Below, in pieces: positions 612 through 9,007 of a DNA stretch of 10,610 nt. Each line of letters starts with the position of its first letter. Position 1 is the stretch's first letter. This stretch comes from Dehalococcoidia bacterium. GTDB taxonomy: Bacteria > Chloroflexota > Dehalococcoidia > Dehalococcoidales > RBG-16-60-22. The notes beneath the pieces were generated by a model, which was given only the letters and a program-made list of their open reading frames with translations, did no database searches and was not told where the DNA came from. The DNA lies in NCBI GenBank assembly GCA_013202615.1, contig JABMRL010000124.1:1-10610 (forward strand). The letters are read 5' to 3'. Made by a program: the position numbers and the translations under genes.

Positions 612-1955
612 TTAGAAGCCGCGTATCATCTGCCCTGGTAGCCAGAGGATTATCTGGGGGAAGATGATGCACAGTGCCAGCGCAGTCACGATGAGGATAA
701 TAAAAGGCCATACCCCACGGATGATGTCACCCGTGGTTACCCCAAGAGATGGGTCAGCGGCACCGCGGAGGTAGAAGATAGCGTAGGCGAAGGGAGGGGT
801 CAGGAAAGACGTCTGCAGGTTAATGCATATCATCATGGCAAACCAGAGCTTGTCAAAACCGAGCTCTGCGCCAATCGGTGAGATTATGGGAATGATAATG
901 AACAGTATCCCCAGCCAGTCGATAAAATAGCCCAGCAGGAAAACGACGAACATGATAATGGCGAAGATGCCCCACTTCCCGCCGGGGGCGCTCAGAATGA
1001 TCTCTTTCACGATATCGCCGCCGCCGCCGCGCATAAATATGCCGACGAAGGCGAAAGCGGTGGCACCGACCAGCAGTACCATCCCGGTGACCTTTATCGT
1101 CTCGGTCATGGTATTCTTAAGGATTTTAAAGTTGAACTGGCGGTAAGCGATGGCCATAAGCGTGGCGGCAAGAGCACCGACGGCGGCAGCCTCGGTGGGG
1201 GTAGCGATACCCATGAAAATACTGCCCAGCACCGCCAGGATAAGTACCACTGGCGGCACCATGGAGGTGAGCAGGTCCCAGGATTTCTTCCCCCAGGAGA
1301 CCGCCCTTTCCTCTAAAGGCACGGAGGGTGCTATTTCTTTCTGTAAGAAACAGCGTATGGCGATGTAGCCGCAGTATAATCCGGAAAGCATGAACCCGGG
1401 GATAAAGGCGGCAAAGAACAGCTTGCCTACCGAGATTTGTGCCATTGGCCCGTAGATTACCAGCATGATGCTGGGAGGAATCAGTATGCCCAGGGTGCCG
1501 CCGGCACATACCGCACCGCTGGCCAGAGCCTTATTGTAACCTCGATTTATCATGGCGGGTAGGGCGATGATGGTCAGCGCCGTGACCGAAGCGCCGATGA
1601 TGCCGACACAGGCGGCCAGGATGGTGCCGAGTAGCACGGTGACTATGGCCAGCCCACCCCTGAAACCGCTGAGCCACAGATACATGGCGGCAAACATTTT
1701 TTCGGTTATGCCCGAGTACCCCAGCATGATGCCCAGGAAGATGAAACCCGGCGCCGCCATGAGGACATAGTTATTCAGCAAGCCAAAAACACGGTGGTAG
1801 ATGACTTCCAGTGCGATAATTGGCCCGAACATGGCGATTCCCATGACGATGCCCATACCACCGACCACGATGGCCAGGGGATAGCCAAGCATGACGAAAA
1901 GCAGGATACCACCGAGCATGGCTATAGTGACTATCTCTGGGCTAATATCAATCAT
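612..1955 (-). CDS. dctM: TRAP transporter large permease subunit (DctM family)
   Basis: This is the membrane channel of a tripartite ATP-independent periplasmic (TRAP) transporter, which imports organic acids using an ion gradient. At 447 residues it is slightly longer than the usual size of about 425. It is almost wholly hydrophobic with many membrane segments. Family signatures are visible: AGGTLGILIPPSIMLVIYG (about 151-169), GIATPTEAAAVGA (249-261), GYFIDWLGILFIIIPI (342-357) and LQTSFLTPPFAYAIFYLRG (380-398). The last two resemble the large permeases of the mannitol/chloroaromatic-compound TRAP group. Its ATG overlaps the TGA of dctQ by the 4-base ATGA at 1952-1955, so the two are translationally coupled. 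A strong hairpin terminator follows the stop codon. The substrate is not determined by this subunit. Confidence 0.95.
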   Translation of the reverse strand: MIDISPEIVTIAMLGGILLFVMLGYPLAIVVGGMGIVMGIAMFGPIIALEVIYHRVFGLLNNYVLMAAPGFIFLGIMLGYSGITEKMFAAMYLWLSGFRGGLAIVTVLLGTILAACVGIIGASVTALTIIALPAMINRGYNKALASGAVCAGGTLGILIPPSIMLVIYGPMAQISVGKLFFAAFIPGFMLSGLYCGYIAIRCFLQKEIAPSVPLEERAVSWGKKSWDLLTSMVPPVVLILAVLGSIFMGIATPTEAAAVGALAATLMAIAYRQFNFKILKNTMTETIKVTGMVLLVGATAFAFVGIFMRGGGGDIVKEIILSAPGGKWGIFAIIMFVVFLLGYFIDWLGILFIIIPIISPIGAELGFDKLWFAMMICINLQTSFLTPPFAYAIFYLRGAADPSLGVTTGDIIRGVWPFIILIVTALALCIIFPQIILWLPGQMIRGF

Positions 1956-2458
1956 AGCTCTTCATCCCTCACCAGAAAATAGATGTCACGGTAGAGCGTG
2001 GCAATACCCTGGAGGGCAAACAAAACAAAGCCAATAAAGATGGCGGTTCGTACCGGGCCCATTATGGGATACCACCAGCTAAACAGGTTCTTCTCATTGG
2101 TTTCCCAGGCAAACCACATCCAGTTCCAGCCGGCGTAGACAAGCAGACCGATAAGCGGCAGGAGAAAGAGCAGGGCGCAAACCACGTCGATGGTAAGCTT
2201 GGCCCACGTTGGCAGGTGGGTGTAAAGAACATCCACCCTGATGTGGCGGCGGTTGAGGTGGACAAAGCCGAAGGAAAGGGCATACATGGAGGCCGCGGTC
2301 ATGACGGCCGTTATCGGCAGTGTTGTCGTCGGGTGGTTAAGCACATACCTCATAAACACCTCAATACAGATGATAGCGATAATGAGGACGGAAAGCCACC
2401 TCACTGCCATGCCCACCCTGTCATTAAGACGGTCTATCGCTTTAATTATCCTTCTCAT
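1952..2458 (-). CDS. dctQ: TRAP transporter small permease subunit (DctQ family)
   Basis: This is the small membrane subunit that pairs with DctM. It has 168 residues and four hydrophobic segments at about 19-38, 50-68, 88-109 and 136-154, the usual DctQ topology. The conserved motif after the second segment is present as HLNRRHIRVDVLY (67-79). The N-terminus RRIIKAIDRLNDRVGMAVRWL is typical, so I keep the ATG at 2458. Its Shine-Dalgarno is weak (GAAAG about 13 nt upstream), which suits low expression relative to the binding protein. The gene lies 104 nt after dctP, with a stable hairpin between them, and overlaps dctM by 4 nt. Confidence 0.92.
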   Translation of the reverse strand: MRRIIKAIDRLNDRVGMAVRWLSVLIIAIICIEVFMRYVLNHPTTTLPITAVMTAASMYALSFGFVHLNRRHIRVDVLYTHLPTWAKLTIDVVCALLFLLPLIGLLVYAGWNWMWFAWETNEKNLFSWWYPIMGPVRTAIFIGFVLFALQGIATLYRDIYFLVRDEEL

Positions 2459-2495
2459 TTTCTGTTTTAATCTTTCAAATTTTATCCTTTACCAT

Positions 2496-2527
2496 GCCCC
2501 GCTCCGGGCTTAGCTCCGGAGCGGGGC
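2496..2527 (-). repeat. Intercistronic hairpin between dctP and dctQ
   Basis: A perfect 12-bp inverted repeat (2496-2507 with 2516-2527, GCCCCGCTCCGG arm) has an 8-nt loop and begins 35 nt after the dctP stop. On the minus strand the hairpin is followed by CATGGTAAAGG with no U-tract, so it does not look like a complete intrinsic terminator. It may protect the 3' end of the dctP message or cause partial attenuation, so that the binding protein is made in excess of the permeases. That role is inferred. Confidence 0.65.
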
Positions 2528-2562
2528 TAAATTGAATTTGGCTGTCGGTAGCTAACCGGGCT

Positions 2563-3759
2563 TTACTTGAATGACCATTTGGCCCAGGAAGGAAGCCCGT
2601 ACAAATCATTCCAGTTCTTGGCAAAATCACGCTGGGACTGCGCTACCTCCATAAATCCGGCGTCCTTGGCCATCTCTTCATCGATGTATTTTATGGCCTC
2701 TTTACCGAACGCCTCCACTATTACCTCGGGCAGAGGCTGCACGATGTTCCCGTAGTCTCTGAAGTTCTGGAGCGCTTCGACATCGCCGGCGATGAGCTGG
2801 TTATGGTAGTCCCATGTCTCCGCCACGCCCATGTCCTCAATGAGGACCTTGAGGTGGTCGGGCAGCGCCTCAAACACGCTCCGCTTCAGCAGAAACATAT
2901 AGACCTCGGTGGGCGCCCGTACCGGGCACATATAGATGTACTTGCCCACTTCATTCAGGCCCATTTCCCAGTCAAAGCGTGGGGAACTGCATTCGTAGGC
3001 GTCAATGAGGCCGCGTTGCATGGCTTCGAAGACTTCGCCCAGGGGCATGAAGAGCGGGCCGACGCCCATGCGGCCGAGGACGGTGCCACCGTCACCGGAG
3101 CATCGCATCTTTATCCCATCCAGGTCGGCGACGGTATTCAACTCCTTTTGAAAGTGGCCGAATATCTCGGGTGGCCCGGCGAAACCAGTACCAGGAGGAA
3201 AGTATAAATCCCACCCCAGTGTCTCGAACCACTTGTTGGCTATGTCACAACCCTCGTTGTCAAGCCATATCTGGAGCTGTTCCGGAGGCATGCCGGCTAC
3301 CGGCTGAATGATATAGCCGCCCCACGGTATGTCGCCTCTCATATAGCCGCCGCCGCTGCCGGCCCAGTCAAGCACGCCGGTCTGAAGAGCCTTGTGCTCT
3401 TCGGTTGCCGGGCAGATGGCGCCGGCGGGGTGAGCTTTCATGATAAGCTGTCCCTGACTGGCGATTTCAATTCGCTTGGCTAAATTCTCCATACCCCAGG
3501 TTACCGGCATTCCGGCGGGCAGGGAGGACTGTCCTATCAAAGTGATTACTTCTGCCGGTGCAGCTGGGGCTGGTGATGGTGCTGGAGTGGGAGCTGGTGC
3601 AGGAGCTGGAGCCGGTGCTGGTGCTGGAGCTGGAGCTGGTGCAGGGGCTGGAGCTGGAGTGGGAGCTGGTGTGGGAGCTGGTGCCGCACAGCCGGCGACG
3701 ATGACGCTGCAGATAAGTACCAGTACCAGAACTGCGGTAATTATTCTTCCTTTCTTCAT
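2563..3759 (-). CDS. dctP: TRAP transporter substrate-binding lipoprotein (DctP family)
   Basis: This is the extracytoplasmic solute receptor of the TRAP system, 398 residues long. A lipoprotein signal peptide ends in the lipobox VAGC with Cys24. A low-complexity Ala/Pro linker follows (about 25-69), then the DctP domain from about residue 71. The segment DLDGIKMRCSGDGGTVLGRMGV (213-233) contains the family arginine (Arg219) that binds the substrate carboxylate. PLGEVFEAMQRGLIDAYE (239-256) is also typical. The spacing and the WGMENLAKRI start resemble 2-oxoacid/monocarboxylate receptors such as TakP, so a 2-oxo or hydroxy acid is a reasonable guess, not a proof. The ribosome site is very strong (GAGGAGGAG, 4-5 nt before ATG). 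The lipid anchor and linker imply tethering at the cell surface. It is the first gene of dctPQM. Confidence 0.95.
   Translation of the reverse strand: MKKGRIITAVLVLVLICSVIVAGCAAPAPTPAPTPAPAPAPAPAPAPAPAPAPAPAPTPAPSPAPAAPAEVITLIGQSSLPAGMPVTWGMENLAKRIEIASQGQLIMKAHPAGAICPATEEHKALQTGVLDWAGSGGGYMRGDIPWGGYIIQPVAGMPPEQLQIWLDNEGCDIANKWFETLGWDLYFPPGTGFAGPPEIFGHFQKELNTVADLDGIKMRCSGDGGTVLGRMGVGPLFMPLGEVFEAMQRGLIDAYECSSPRFDWEMGLNEVGKYIYMCPVRAPTEVYMFLLKRSVFEALPDHLKVLIEDMGVAETWDYHNQLIAGDVEALQNFRDYGNIVQPLPEVIVEAFGKEAIKYIDEEMAKDAGFMEVAQSQRDFAKNWNDLYGLPSWAKWSFK
3553..3687 (-). repeat. Hexamer repeat encoding the Ala-Pro linker of DctP
   Basis: On the plus strand this stretch is made of repeated GCTGGT/GCTGGA/GCTGGG-type hexamers. 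It encodes roughly 45 residues of alternating Ala and Pro with a few Thr and Ser, directly after the lipobox cysteine. Such simple repeats can change length by slippage. The unit preserves the reading frame, so length variants would remain functional. Confidence 0.9.
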
Positions 3760-4674: not shown

Positions 4675-5868
4675 TTATTTCCGAAGTGACTGTACCGCCG
4701 CTTTGATTCCAGCGCCGGTCTCCGTCTTGTAGCCTTCTTCCGCCAGCAGTTTCTCCAGTGCGGAGAGGATGAGCAATACGTTCTGTTCGGTGGAGGCATA
4801 GCCCATAAGCCCGATGCGCCAGACCTTACCCTTCAATGTTCCCAGCCCGCCACCGATTTCGATGCTGTAGTCGCTGAGGAGGCGCTGCCGTATCCGGGCA
4901 TCGTCAATGCCATCCGGAATGTGGACTGTGGTCAATGTGTTGAGGCGGTAGCCGGGCGGGACGTGCATTGTGAGCCCTATCGCCTCCAGACCAGCCTGAA
5001 GCGCGGCGCCATGCCTGGCATGACGCTGGATGCGTGCCTCCAAACCTTCCTCGGCGACGAGCGCCAGCGCCTCGTGCAGGGCGTAGAACATGCAGGCGGG
5101 TGCCGTGTGATGATAGGCTCGCTGGCCTTTGTCCCTTATCCAGTACGTGGAGAGCAGGGATAAGTCAAGATAGTAGCTTGGTATAGCATGAGAGCGGTTC
5201 GGGATGGTGTCCATGGCCTTCTGGCTGACGGTGATGGGGGACAGCCCGGGCGGGCAGCTGAGGCACTTCTGAGAGCAGCTGTAGCAGATGTCAACGCCCC
5301 AGTCGTCCACCGCCAGCTCGTGTCCTCCCAGAGACGTAACCGCATCCACCAGGAACAGCGCCTCATGCTGCTTCGCCAATTGAGCAGCTTCGGTGAGCGG
5401 TTGGAGAACGCCGGTGGAGGTCTCGGCGTGGACCAGTGCCAGCAGCTTCACTTTTTTCCGGGATTTAAGGGCGGCTTCGATTGCCTCGGGCTCAATGATG
5501 CGGCCCCACTCGGCATCCAGCTGGATAACCTCCGCACCGCAGCGCAGGGCTATGTTTATCATCCGGTCGGCAAAGAACCCGTTATTCGCGATGACGGCAA
5601 CGTCACCCGGTTCCAGGAAATTGCAGAGGCCGGCTTCCATACCCGCCGAACCGGTGGCCGAGATGGGGAAGGTGAGCTTGTTCTCGGTCCGGAAAAGGTA
5701 GCGCAGGAGGCTCATGGTGTCTTCCATGATGGTGTAAAAATATGGGTCCATATGCCCGAGCACGGGTGCCATCATAGCCTGCTGGACGTGGGGGTGGACA
5801 TTGCTGGGGCCGGGACCGAGGAGAATACGTTGCGGGGGTTTAATTTCCTGATATGGAATACCGGGCAT
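4675..5868 (-). CDS. Serine/alanine-glyoxylate-type aminotransferase (class V)
   Basis: This is a 397-residue PLP enzyme of the alanine-glyoxylate / serine-glyoxylate / serine-pyruvate aminotransferase family. Visible features are the N-terminal LLGPGPSNVHPHV (16-28), the phosphate loop ATGSAGMEA (71-79), VDAVTSLGG with the PLP-ring Asp175, and SCSQKCLSCPPGLSP with the Schiff-base Lys201. YHHTAP (252-257) and VWRIGLMG with the carboxylate-binding Arg351 are also present. Members move the amino group of serine, alanine or a ureido-amine to glyoxylate or pyruvate; the exact donor cannot be read from sequence. The start is the ATG at 5868, because GAGGTG lies 7 nt upstream (5876-5881). An in-frame TTG at 5874 is too close to that site. 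It follows the GcvT-SHMT gene by 37 nt, so serine made there could be converted to hydroxypyruvate, with glyoxylate becoming glycine (inference). Confidence 0.9.
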   Translation of the reverse strand: MPGIPYQEIKPPQRILLGPGPSNVHPHVQQAMMAPVLGHMDPYFYTIMEDTMSLLRYLFRTENKLTFPISATGSAGMEAGLCNFLEPGDVAVIANNGFFADRMINIALRCGAEVIQLDAEWGRIIEPEAIEAALKSRKKVKLLALVHAETSTGVLQPLTEAAQLAKQHEALFLVDAVTSLGGHELAVDDWGVDICYSCSQKCLSCPPGLSPITVSQKAMDTIPNRSHAIPSYYLDLSLLSTYWIRDKGQRAYHHTAPACMFYALHEALALVAEEGLEARIQRHARHGAALQAGLEAIGLTMHVPPGYRLNTLTTVHIPDGIDDARIRQRLLSDYSIEIGGGLGTLKGKVWRIGLMGYASTEQNVLLILSALEKLLAEEGYKTETGAGIKAAVQSLRK

Positions 5869-5905
5869 TGCCAATCACCTCATAAAATATTCTTGGACGG
5901 GGGCC

Positions 5906-8587
5906 TTAAGATTTTAACAGACTGCCCAGCATTTTATCAACAAGCGGCCTGGTTTTTTCCTCGGGCAGGCAGTAGTGCATAATGGTGAATCTCTGCCGGA
6001 AGCGGGCGACCTCCCGGGAGACATTCTTTTTTTCAATGATGACTGCCGCCATATAGTCGGCCAGCTCGGCGAAGTCGGCTTCCTTCATACCAAAGCGGGT
6101 CATCTCCTGGACACCGGTTCTCAGGCCGCTGCTGGCGGTGAAACCTTCGTCATCGGGCAGTGCCTGGAAGTTAACGATGATGTTATTTTCCTCCAGCCGC
6201 TCCGCCATCTCCACGCCGCGGGCATAGCCCACGCGCAGGAGGACCTGGTGTGTTTCCGTGTGGTTGACGGCGGGGTCTCCTTCCACCTGGAGCCCGCGTT
6301 CCTTCAGTGCCAGGGCAAAGGCTTTGGCATTGGCCAGTACCTGCCGTTGGTAATCGCGCCCGTAGGCGTTCATCTCGTAGGCGGCCATGAGCAGGCCGAG
6401 CAGTGTACCGAGGTGATGGTTGCTGACGCTGCCCGGAAAAGACCTCCGCGAAATGCTCCCCCAGAGTTCGGAGTAATCCGAGTCCGGGCTCATATTGCTG
6501 GCAATGATACCGCGCTGCGTGCCGAAGAAAGTCTTGTGTGTGGAGCCGGTGACGATATCGGCGCCTTCCTTCAGCGGCTCCTGAAAGTAAGGCCCGAACA
6601 GCCCGAGGACATGGGCCGCATCATACATTACGATTGGCTTCGGCTTCATATCGGCGATTATTCGGGCTATTTCCGCTACCGGCTCGCGATATAAAATCAT
6701 GCTCTTGCCGAAGATAAAGAGTTCCGGCTGGTACCTGGCGATGAGTTCGGTGGCTCTGGTGATGTCTATCTGGTACGGGTTTTCGGTAAGAACGGGGAAA
6801 TTGACCACCGCCCATCGGTCGGTAGCCGGGTCTATGGAAACGAAGTCCCTCAGCGTGCCCATGGGCTGTGCGCTCAGGTGGCCACCCCGCCCGATATGAT
6901 GGTTCATGACATATCTCATCCGCCTCGGTTCGCTGTGTCGGTCGGTCCGGTTCAGGTAATCCGCGATACCGCTATAGGTGGTGGCATTGGCCATCAGACC
7001 GCTGATGAGCCTCGCTTCCACTTCCGAGCAGTCGAGGAACTTTTTTAATTGCTCCTGTACTTCCTTCTCCACCTCGGCAATGAACCTAGTGCCCTGGTAA
7101 TAAAACGCATCCATGTTTCCCAGCGCTTCCACCTTGCGGTGTTCGGCGTACCGGTGCGATGGGTCAGCAATGGTGAGCAGTTTTACCAGCGGTGATGCCG
7201 TCTGCTCCGACGGTATCAGGTTGATAGCCTGCTGTTGTCGCCAGGTAGTATTATCGTGGGCTTTTTGCACCAGGTTGGCGGCCAGTTCCTCCATTGCTTT
7301 TTCACCTTTTGCGGAGGCATTATTTTTTCTATTGTTGGGCAGCAGGGGGCGGGCGTGGGGGGGTGCCTCGCCGCCGATGTGCCGGCGCACGATGACCGCG
7401 CTTACCGGTTTGTCCCTGATGATGACCTCTGCTTTCTGTCCTTCAGACAAACCAGCATCGAGATAGGCCAGGCAGATAATCCGCCGTGCGGATTCGTCAC
7501 CGGGCCTGGCCATTGTACCGGAACCTTCGAATTCCCAGTAGGGTACCACCGTGCCGCTGGTAACTTTTCCCACGATTCTGCCGTCAACCAGCACCTGATT
7601 GCCGGCCCTGGCAATTCCGTCGCCCGGCAGGGACATTAAAAAAATGCTTCTGGGAACGAGCAGCTTATCTTCAGGCGTATCCAGCCTGCCTTCCCGCCTG
7701 AGTTTAACTTCCTGAAACTGCTGGTGCAGTGCCTCGCGCCCGATGAATTCACCTTTGACGGGACTGAAACTGACGGCGAAACGGGCAGCGGACAGGGCGA
7801 ATATTGGTATCGCTTTTCCATCGGCGTCAGTTCCCAGTTCGTGGCCATAGAGAGGGAAACCCGCCTCCAGCCTTAGCGTATCCCTGGCGCCCAGCCCGAC
7901 CGGCACAATGCCGTGCTCTTTGCCCGTGTCAAGTAATTTGCGCCATAGAGAAGCCGCCGTATCGGCGGGTGGAAATAGTTCAAAGCCAAGCGGTTCGCCG
8001 GTGTACCCGGTTCTGGCAATGGTGACATCGGTGCCCATGAATTGACTGCTGGCCAGGCGGTTCAGAAGAGGCTCGGGAATTCCGGTTTTATTGCCGAGGA
8101 CGGTTTCCAGCACGGCCTTTGTTTTCGGGCCCTGCAGTGCAAACATGGCCAGGTTGCTCGTGATGTCCTCGAAGGTCAGGTCAGGGAATTTGGGAGTGTA
8201 TTGCTGCAGCCATTGCCTGTCTTTCTCCGCATTGGCCGCGTTCGTGACCAGCAGATAATCGTTATCGCCGACACAGTAAAGATATCCGTCGTCTATGGCG
8301 CCGCCCGTTTCATCTGGCAATATGGTGTACTGAGCGATTCCCGGCAGCAGCGCCGCAGCGTTACCGGTCAGGACATACTGCAGAAAGGGCAGGGCATCGC
8401 GACCGCTGATGCGAAACCGGCACATGTGTGAGATGTCAAAAAGTCCGCCGTATTTCCTGGTTGCCAGGTGCTCGGAAAGGATGCCCTGAGGGTAGTGGAG
8501 GGGTATTTCCCAGCCCCCGAACTCAACCATCTTGGCACCCAGTTCCAAGTGCTCTTCATAAAGCGGGGTACGTTTTGCACCGGTCAT
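5906..8587 (-). CDS. Bifunctional GcvT (aminomethyltransferase) - serine hydroxymethyltransferase fusion
   Basis: This is one 893-codon frame with two folate-linked enzymes. Residues 1 to about 415 form a full T protein: GGLFDISHM (47-55), AQYTILPDETGGAIDD (85-100, ending in the expected catalytic Asp), LLVTNAANAEKD, ARTGYTGEPLGFELF and VGLGARDTLRLEAGFPLYGHEL. About 16 polar linker residues follow. Residues 432-893 form an SHMT-like PLP domain with NLIPSEQTASP (catalytic Glu461), GRGGHLSAQPMG (His570), YDAAHVLGLFG (Asp656), GSTHKTFFGTQRG (Schiff-base Lys685) and SGLRTG (Arg823). The T protein releases methylene-tetrahydrofolate from aminomethylated H protein. SHMT uses it to convert glycine to serine, so the pair could pass one-carbon units directly. 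GcvH, GcvP and Lpd are not in the window. The ribosome site before ATG 8587 is weak (GGA). A secondary start lies inside the frame at 7294. Confidence 0.9.
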   Translation of the reverse strand: MTGAKRTPLYEEHLELGAKMVEFGGWEIPLHYPQGILSEHLATRKYGGLFDISHMCRFRISGRDALPFLQYVLTGNAAALLPGIAQYTILPDETGGAIDDGYLYCVGDNDYLLVTNAANAEKDRQWLQQYTPKFPDLTFEDITSNLAMFALQGPKTKAVLETVLGNKTGIPEPLLNRLASSQFMGTDVTIARTGYTGEPLGFELFPPADTAASLWRKLLDTGKEHGIVPVGLGARDTLRLEAGFPLYGHELGTDADGKAIPIFALSAARFAVSFSPVKGEFIGREALHQQFQEVKLRREGRLDTPEDKLLVPRSIFLMSLPGDGIARAGNQVLVDGRIVGKVTSGTVVPYWEFEGSGTMARPGDESARRIICLAYLDAGLSEGQKAEVIIRDKPVSAVIVRRHIGGEAPPHARPLLPNNRKNNASAKGEKAMEELAANLVQKAHDNTTWRQQQAINLIPSEQTASPLVKLLTIADPSHRYAEHRKVEALGNMDAFYYQGTRFIAEVEKEVQEQLKKFLDCSEVEARLISGLMANATTYSGIADYLNRTDRHSEPRRMRYVMNHHIGRGGHLSAQPMGTLRDFVSIDPATDRWAVVNFPVLTENPYQIDITRATELIARYQPELFIFGKSMILYREPVAEIARIIADMKPKPIVMYDAAHVLGLFGPYFQEPLKEGADIVTGSTHKTFFGTQRGIIASNMSPDSDYSELWGSISRRSFPGSVSNHHLGTLLGLLMAAYEMNAYGRDYQRQVLANAKAFALALKERGLQVEGDPAVNHTETHQVLLRVGYARGVEMAERLEENNIIVNFQALPDDEGFTASSGLRTGVQEMTRFGMKEADFAELADYMAAVIIEKKNVSREVARFRQRFTIMHYCLPEEKTRPLVDKMLGSLLKS
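7292..7309 (-). promoter_or_regulatory. Internal ribosome site and start codon at the SHMT domain
   Basis: On the minus strand AAAGGTG (7303-7309) is followed after 8 nt by an in-frame ATG (7292-7294), codon 432 of the fusion, exactly where SHMT homology begins (MEELAANLVQKAHDN). This could yield a free SHMT of 462 residues in addition to the fusion. It could also be a relic of when the two genes were separate. An A6 run (7323-7328 as T6 on the plus strand) lies just upstream in the linker. Confidence 0.5.
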
Positions 8588-8614: not shown

Positions 8615-9007
8615 TTAGAATAGTCGCCAGTCCCTCAGGCCCTGCTGGATAACCGCCAGGTATTCTTTCGAGGGCGCCGCATCTTCGAGCTTACCGTCTT
8701 TGATGTAGGTTATAGCCTCGATGGGCTCATCATCCTCACCGAAAACAGTGATTTTAAGTCGACTGTAGCCGCTTTCATACCGGTCAAGTCTCTGCAGGCA
8801 GGACTCCGTAACCTCATAGATAGCGCCCCGCACCCGGTCCCCGCGCAAAGACTTTATACTGGCCACCCCTCCCCGCCACTGCCGCGACCACCCGACAAAA
8901 ACGAGCTTGTAGTTGGGCAGGACAGCGGTGAACAGCGGTTTGCCGTCCGGGCAACGTTCTTTCATCTGTTTCTGGTTCAGATTAGAGCCGTAGGCGAAGT
9001 AATACAA
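8615..9007 (-). CDS. Gamma-glutamylcyclotransferase family protein
   Basis: This 130-residue GGCT/AIG2-like protein has a small beta-barrel fold; relatives cyclise gamma-glutamyl amines to 5-oxoproline. It starts MYYFAYGSNLNQKQM, with the YGSNL substrate loop at residues 6-10. It continues with VRGAIYEVTESCLQRLDRYESGYSR, in which Glu78 of the LDRYES motif is the expected catalytic acid. The start codon is TTG at 9007, supported by AGAGGA six nt upstream and by the family N-terminus, which leaves no room for another start. It is 27 nt upstream of the GcvT-SHMT gene and 43 nt downstream of the desulforedoxin gene, so it is probably co-transcribed. The true substrate is unknown, since many bacterial members do not act on glutathione. 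Confidence 0.88.
   Translation of the reverse strand: MYYFAYGSNLNQKQMKERCPDGKPLFTAVLPNYKLVFVGWSRQWRGGVASIKSLRGDRVRGAIYEVTESCLQRLDRYESGYSRLKITVFGEDDEPIEAITYIKDGKLEDAAPSKEYLAVIQQGLRDWRLF

Follow-up and report, generated by a model that had tools for sequence, protein, structure and literature searches.

The window, which here means the whole 10,610-nucleotide stretch of Dehalococcoidia contig JABMRL010000124.1 that was analysed, carries on its minus strand a gene in which a T-protein (aminomethyltransferase, GcvT) domain is joined to a serine hydroxymethyltransferase (SHMT) domain. T protein and SHMT are folate enzymes of glycine and serine metabolism and are normally separate proteins. The frame begins with ATG and runs through 893 codons with no internal stop (Table 1). 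On the encoded protein the Pfam families GCV_T (residues 9-254, 2.6e-80) and GCV_T_C (residues 318-347, 1.4e-08) matched above their gathering scores, and SHMT (residues 442-846, 1e-31) reached 110.4 bits against a gathering score of 27; the SHMT half extends past this Pfam domain, up to residue 893. An earlier reading made from the sequence alone (the sequence-only reading) had described a complete T protein and a complete SHMT-like domain in one 893-residue frame, and both the open frame and the Pfam matches bear it out. A pseudogene was considered and rejected, as the frame is open and the active-site residues are retained.

Judged from sequence comparison, it is very likely that this protein carries the T protein of the glycine cleavage system (GCS) and the cell's SHMT on one chain, coupling glycine, serine and 5,10-methylene-tetrahydrofolate (methylene-THF). 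The window's genome probably has no T protein or SHMT other than the fusion. We infer both activities, the use of tetrahydrofolate (THF) as carrier, reversibility in the cell and any gain from the joining.

Table 1. Features of the fusion gene and its immediate neighbours (window coordinates)
Feature	Position	Strand	Basis or remark
GcvT-SHMT fusion gene	5906..8587	minus	single open frame, 893 aa
T-protein half, residues 1-410	7358..8587	minus	Pfam GCV_T and GCV_T_C; NCBIfam TIGR00528
Folate-binding domain of T half, residues 9-254	7826-8563	minus	Pfam GCV_T
Asp99-Asp100 of T half	8288..8293	minus	aligned with D97/D98 of E. coli GcvT
Linker, residues 411-440	7268..7357	minus	sequence and length both variable
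In-frame ATG, Met432	7292-7294	minus	AGGTGA at 7302-7307, seven bases upstream of the ATG
SHMT domain, residues 442-846, archaeal-like	6050..7264	minus	Pfam SHMT; best solved relative 4bhd/4uqv
Lys685, pyridoxal phosphate lysine, equivalent to E. coli K229	6533..6535	minus	alignment with E. coli GlyA
Alanine/serine-glyoxylate-type aminotransferase	4675..5874	minus	31 bases downstream of fusion; PDB match 1vjo
Gamma-glutamylcyclotransferase-like (GGACT) gene	8615..9007	minus	27 bases upstream of fusion; Pfam

Identity of the two halves

For residue comparison, E. coli GlyA was aligned with 142 fused rows of full length, 141 of them distinct; the window and genomic loci supplied 28 of the 142 and the protein database 114. 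This alignment and the two trees described below count locus L014 as a plain T-SHMT fusion.

The T half scored 274.5 bits against the GcvT equivalog model TIGR00528 (cut-off 235.85) and 307.5 bits against another NCBI GcvT model (cut-off 300); TIGR00528 was also passed by all nine of the other T sequences scanned. Asp99 and Asp100 are invariant in 142 of 142 fused rows. We take the aligned D97/D98 of E. coli GcvT to be the region of the catalytic Asp, without assigning catalysis to either member of the pair. A catalytic Asp near residue 100 and Lys685 had both been named by the sequence-only reading; they are in place, each site being invariant throughout the fused rows.

That reading had also raised the alternative of a T domain demethylating another amine. 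In its wider form the T half would be a demethylase of another amine or sulfonium (dimethylglycine, sarcosine, trimethylamine N-oxide (TMAO) or dimethylsulfoniopropionate (DMSP)), with the methylene-THF fed to the SHMT half. The window holds no GCS gene, and the Pseudomonadota fusion genomes G027, G028, G029 and G031 contain 15, 6, 27 and 14 GCV_T matches, respectively, many of these matches belonging to open frames 700-1100 aa long; in G027 and G029 a separate T also lies close to P protein. However, demethylase models scored far under their cut-offs with the T half (soxA, 142.2 bits against 1164; TMAO demethylase, 129.1 against 1100; DMSP demethylase, 46.7 against 410). Together with the GcvT model, GcvH and GcvPA in the genome, GCS genes beside several loci, co-occurrence with P protein and a GcvPB-GcvT-SHMT chain (protein P0238), all described below, this disfavours a demethylase for the window's genome and makes it highly improbable overall.

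In the SHMT half, S460, Y480, E482, Y497, H570, D656, H659, H684, K685 and R823 (E. coli GlyA S35, Y55, E57, Y65, H126, D200, H203, H228, K229 and R363) are invariant in 142 of 142 fused rows, and also in 65 stand-alone relatives (455-480 aa) and 16 more distant loci. The catalytic roles of the aligned residues, including Glu57 and Tyr65 of E. coli, are presumed from general knowledge. The best solved relatives were 4bhd and 4uqv (186 bits over almost the entire domain), which we take to be the SHMT of Methanocaldococcus jannaschii.

The divergence of this half counts against an ordinary folate-dependent SHMT. Against the NCBI SHMT subfamily PRK00011 it scored 240.9 bits, short of the cut-off of 335, and seven other fusions scanned scored 218-255 bits. 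E. coli R235 is replaced by Q in 142 of 142 fused rows and N347 by Q in 141 of 142. The loop between the equivalents of E57 and Y65 has 14 residues in the window versus 7 in E. coli, and the other rows inspected likewise have a longer loop than E. coli, to varying extents. With such differences the carrier or the substrate could be other than the usual one. M. jannaschii SHMT binds and uses a modified folate, tetrahydromethanopterin (H4MPT), according to PMC3697235, and thus the carrier of the SHMT half should not be assumed.

The same loop bears on whether the SHMT half might be a threonine- or fluorothreonine-type transaldolase, or an aldolase, instead of a folate-dependent SHMT. PMC10495429 describes loop 1 as a folate-binding region of SHMTs that is variable among threonine transaldolases, its length differing between transaldolase clusters, and gives 7k34 as the L-threonine transaldolase ObiH. 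Loop 1 is longer in the fusion, ObiH is the next solved relative after 4bhd/4uqv, and a fluorothreonine transaldolase model matched at 152.8 bits. That model's cut-off of 650 was not approached, however, and ObiH matched at 106 bits over the C-terminal part only, so that the SHMT half lies nearer to SHMT. Moreover, the equivalents of Y55, E57 and Y65 are invariant, and no GlyA was found in nine of the ten genomes of the window's family that have a fusion-type gene. A transaldolase or aldolase is thus very unlikely, and the SHMT half is better read as an archaeal-like SHMT.

Spread and history of the fused form

A protein database search with the whole fusion gave 5769 matches among 7997 candidates scored. 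PF01571 and PF00464 occur together in 119 of the best 120 matches, mostly in proteins of about 890 aa, so the arrangement noticed in the window is found in nearly all of its closest database relatives. Where the listed matches have source names, these are 'aminomethyltransferase' or 'glycine cleavage system aminomethyltransferase GcvT'. In a scan of genome contigs 80 of the 183 relatives found were retained as loci, and tblastn with each half found both halves at 32 of them (L003-L033 and L037), some cut by contig ends and one (L007) with a stop. From record titles, the carriers include Dehalococcoidia, Pirellulales and another planctomycete, Spirochaetales, Nitrospiria, Kiritimatiellae, Stahlbacteria, many Desulfobacterota/'Deltaproteobacteria', Rhodospirillales, Hyphomicrobiales, Muproteobacteria and Thioalkalivibrio sp. 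HK1. As almost all of these come from metagenome bins, individual cases may be mis-binned. An assembly artefact or chance joining was rejected in view of the 119 database matches, the invariant active sites and the clade formed by the T halves.

Five of the six genomes of the window's genus have a fusion-type gene. Both halves lie in one frame in G000 (the window's assembly), G200, G201 and G202; L003 and L004 are the G200 and G201 copies (identical contig numbers and positions). In G199 (L022) a contig edge leaves only the T end, in frame with SHMT, and in G203 neither half was found. A literature search for the fusion, or for both enzymes together, found none named in open-licence titles and abstract openings, and among open-licence papers none was found on the reductive glycine pathway in Dehalococcoidia; as coverage was open-licence only, no claim is made that the fusion is unpublished.

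Individual loci showed further variation. The Spirochaetales fusion (L007) has one in-frame TAG (12089-12091) inside the SHMT half, which may be an error, a true stop or decay. In a Kiritimatiellae genome (G023), a canonical GlyA accompanies two fusion genes, whose frames of 968 and 912 aa lie on contigs C132 and C377. Stand-alone archaeal-like SHMTs, 46-55% identical to the window's SHMT half, occur at L036, L038-L050 and L082; in several of these genomes they are the only SHMT over the cut-off, and no fusion-type T was present in the locus DNA examined.

A longer chain was found in a Nitrospiria bin. At L014 (1-2970) the frame reaches the contig start without a stop, begins with a GcvPB C-terminal domain (PF21478, 9.8e-22) and runs on unbroken into GcvT and then SHMT. 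A search with the GcvPB end among proteins of 544-1730 aa gave 608 matches. Among the best 120 there was one protein with all of GcvPB, GcvT and SHMT (P0238, 1368 aa, encoded on a 44,969-base contig); three others (P0239, P0240 and P0241; 906, 895 and 891 aa) combine GcvPB with GcvT and lack SHMT. L014 is a contig-cut copy of P0238 (98% identity over 989 aa). The T and SHMT parts of P0238 are 53% and 59% identical, respectively, to those of the window. Because P0238 joins P, T and SHMT of the route from two glycines to serine, it supports the T half as the T protein of the GCS.

A quick tree was built from 68 T-half rows, including 17 hand-picked database rows and 20 T-only loci. Its 45 fused rows all group in a single clade (SH-aLRT 100, branch 0.57), inside which only two unfused rows fall (L034 and L051). 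The T parts of P0238-P0241 all lie inside this clade. The SHMT tree (88 rows, with 25 fused and 18 stand-alone database rows picked by hand) has a very distant outgroup, so that its root is unsure; it shows 11 changes between the fused and stand-alone states, at least five of them by well-supported branches. Stand-alone rows appear repeatedly within the Chloroflexota fused group, and four Pseudomonadota fusions stand apart on long branches near the outgroup. The simplest reading would be one old fusion that spread between phyla and was repeatedly split in Chloroflexota.

Two separate genes in relatives, which the sequence-only reading had set against a genuine fusion, do occur. In L034 (4207-6893) the T gene ends with TGA at 5470-5472 and the SHMT gene starts with ATG two bases later at 5475, the pair being surrounded by Lpd-like, GcvH, GcvPA/PB and phosphoglycerate-dehydrogenase-like genes. 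In genomes G205 and G206, T and SHMT are separate genes on separate contigs. The split forms lie inside the fused clade, however, which speaks for splitting after the fusion arose rather than for an artefact in the window. Since natural split versions exist in close relatives, T and SHMT need not be joined to function.

The linker differs in both sequence and length among the 28 rows in which it was compared, and no column of residues 415-438 is 90% conserved (alignment A1, 57 rows). A variable linker some 30 residues long is more in keeping with a loose tether than with a built-in tunnel. Met432 coincides with the N-termini of the stand-alone relatives P0135, P0150 and P0162; its ATG is in frame in the window and L003 and absent from the sister L004. 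This ATG is possibly an internal start from which SHMT could also be made on its own, or the relic of such a start, a guess from the DNA itself.

These observations also suit an explanation in which both activities are present and the fusion is kinetically meaningless: a frozen in-frame joining, harmless and readily lost. Stand-alone SHMT rows among the fused Chloroflexota, the variable linker, the split genes of L034, G205 and G206 and the GcvPB-GcvT chains that lack SHMT all agree with it. On the other hand, the 45 fused T halves form one clade over several phyla, so the joined form is long-lasting, and in one lineage a third GCS enzyme has been joined on. We regard a frozen joining as a possibility to be taken seriously, though not as the favoured one.

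Glycine cleavage partners, gene neighbours and co-occurrence

The window's assembly (G000; 1.34 Mb, 277 contigs, 77% complete) has one SHMT match and one GCV_T match, both of them the fusion gene; no other T or SHMT was found in it. Thus, to the extent that the assembly is complete, its GCS would have no T protein if the fusion were absent. Contig C159 of the same assembly carries GcvH, the first part of GcvPA and SerA (phosphoglycerate dehydrogenase; 629.4 bits, cut-off 454) contiguously. GcvH is over its model cut-off and has the motif ETVKA, presumably the lipoyl-lysine site. The sequence-only reading, in which no other glycine-cleavage genes were visible nearby, is therefore correct as far as the window goes; in the rest of the genome, a check for GcvH and GcvP returned GcvH and a partial GcvPA.

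Immediately downstream of the fusion, the class V aminotransferase is closest to alanine-glyoxylate aminotransferase (1vjo, 5.7e-116, PDB search). An aminotransferase also lies 3' of the SHMT part in L003, L004, L005, L022, L120 and L123, and 3' of the split SHMT in L104/L118 (both G205) and L035/L105 (both G206). Further downstream in the window (612-3759, minus strand) are genes for a tripartite ATP-independent periplasmic (TRAP) transporter (DctM, DctQ and DctP by Pfam); its DctP has a long Ala-Pro repeat close to the N-terminus.

GCS genes are near seven of the 32 fused loci (L007, L014, L018, L021, L026, L027 and L028), as well as near L121, from the window's family, and the split L034. 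The neighbours are GcvH, PA and PB at L007, the PB end at L014 and a set including Lpd at L021. In L018, L026 and L028 the fusion is followed by a phosphoserine-phosphatase-like gene with an ACT domain (120.8 bits against the SerB model in L018, cut-off 144.15) and preceded by an Lrp/AsnC-type gene; the phosphoglycerate-dehydrogenase-like gene of L034 scored 430.1 bits (cut-off 454). The neighbourhood of the fusion in other phyla is that of serine-glycine-one-carbon metabolism. Related genes of about 300 aa with no Pfam match lie between the fusion and the SerB-like gene in L018 (12723-13637) and L026 (8119-9030).

Co-occurrence was examined in 31 genomes of the window's family, of varying completeness. 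Fused, contig-cut and split genes were all counted as fusion-type, and a 429-aa SHMT-like match in G211 (28% identical) was left out. A fusion-type SHMT was found in ten genomes and canonical GlyA in 16, with both in one (G209) and neither in six. GCV_T was present in nine of the 31, in every case as the fusion or its split form, and in no genome with GlyA alone. P protein was found in nine: eight of the ten with a fusion-type gene and one of the 21 without (Fisher p 4.7e-5). GlyA was found in one of the ten, compared with 15 of the 21 (Fisher p 0.002); neither p value is corrected for kinship or completeness. In the window's family, then, the fusion tracks P protein and mostly replaces the ordinary GlyA. 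Across the wider class, sampled with 148 genomes of which 130 had any SHMT match, canonical GlyA predominates; the fusion was seen in G000 and G085, the latter having GlyA as well. Over the 34 named genomes with a fused or split gene, P protein was found in 30 (all but G002, G007, G012 and G028).

Several of these results weigh against a fusion that serves as the T protein and SHMT of a complete GCS. In G000, where the partners sought were GcvH and P protein, GcvPA is contig-cut and no GcvPB was found by the P search, which is weak on relatives' GcvPB. No GCS gene matching the reference proteins was found at 25 of the 32 fused loci, many of which are short. P was not found in G198 and G201 (62% and 78% complete) despite their fusion-type gene, and G203 has P and shows no fusion-type gene. 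The fusion-type gene is the only SHMT in 11 of the 34 genomes, another SHMT being present in 23, and a further T of stand-alone size (frame of 370-475 aa, at least 190 bits) occurs in ten (G009, G010, G011, G013, G014, G015, G025, G027, G029 and G035). Where a genome also has a separate T or SHMT, the fusion may be an extra with a special role.

Proposed function and comparison with known systems

In the function we propose, the T half would transfer the aminomethyl group from lipoyl-GcvH to THF, giving methylene-THF and ammonia, and the archaeal-like SHMT half would convert methylene-THF and glycine to serine and THF, and back. Working with GcvP, GcvH and Lpd, the protein would interconvert two glycines with one serine, CO2 and NH3. 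The T, SHMT and combined two-glycine/serine reaction scheme is established knowledge. The linker is most likely a flexible tether that would keep the two enzymes equimolar and close together.

T and SHMT steps also belong to the reductive glycine pathway, and according to PMC7547702 the serine branch of that pathway may continue by transamination to hydroxypyruvate. SerA, the aminotransferase and formate-tetrahydrofolate ligase (FTHFS) are compatible with serine synthesis, with one-carbon supply or with a reductive flux through glycine. As FTHFS is present in 27 of the 31 family genomes, G000 among them, either direction of flux is possible, and not only the net glycine-to-serine conversion proposed by the sequence-only reading.

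Whether T protein hands methylene-THF directly to SHMT has long been asked for glycine-to-serine conversion, for example in plant photorespiration. In the fusion, methylene-THF might, as the sequence-only reading proposed, be passed from the T site to the SHMT site on the protein, a bound folate cycling almost like a prosthetic group as two glycines become serine; in one lineage this hand-over would be extended by a P subunit on the same chain. The variable linker and the repeated natural splitting argue against its being essential, and we consider it doubtful. The natural fusion, the split versions in sister genera and the three-enzyme version together offer a direct experiment on folate hand-over. 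Furthermore, the names 'aminomethyltransferase' and 'GcvT' conceal the SHMT, so that serine-glycine interconversion may be wrongly scored as missing from such genomes.

Compared with known systems, the T half is nearest by sequence, among solved structures, to the T proteins 1yx2 and 1woo. It aligns with them over almost its full length, retains the Asp pair, reaches the equivalog score and shares its genome with GcvH and GcvPA; it differs in being joined to SHMT and in having extra residues at about 298-318, ahead of the C-terminal barrel. M. jannaschii SHMT (4bhd, 4uqv) has STHKTFFG-Q, SNHH and a C-terminal extension in common with the window's SHMT half; in the latter the loop following Glu482 is longer and a T domain precedes the SHMT part. 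E. coli GlyA is identical at the ten aligned active-site residues and differs at R235 and N347, each Q in the window, and at GG262-263, which is SN. ObiH (7k34) is SHMT-like in sequence and, like the window, has a loop 1 unlike that of an ordinary SHMT, but its match is confined to the C-terminal part. The chains P0238 and P0239-P0241 have T parts that belong to the window's T clade, and P0238 has an SHMT part as well; they differ by an N-terminal GcvPB that is absent from the window protein.

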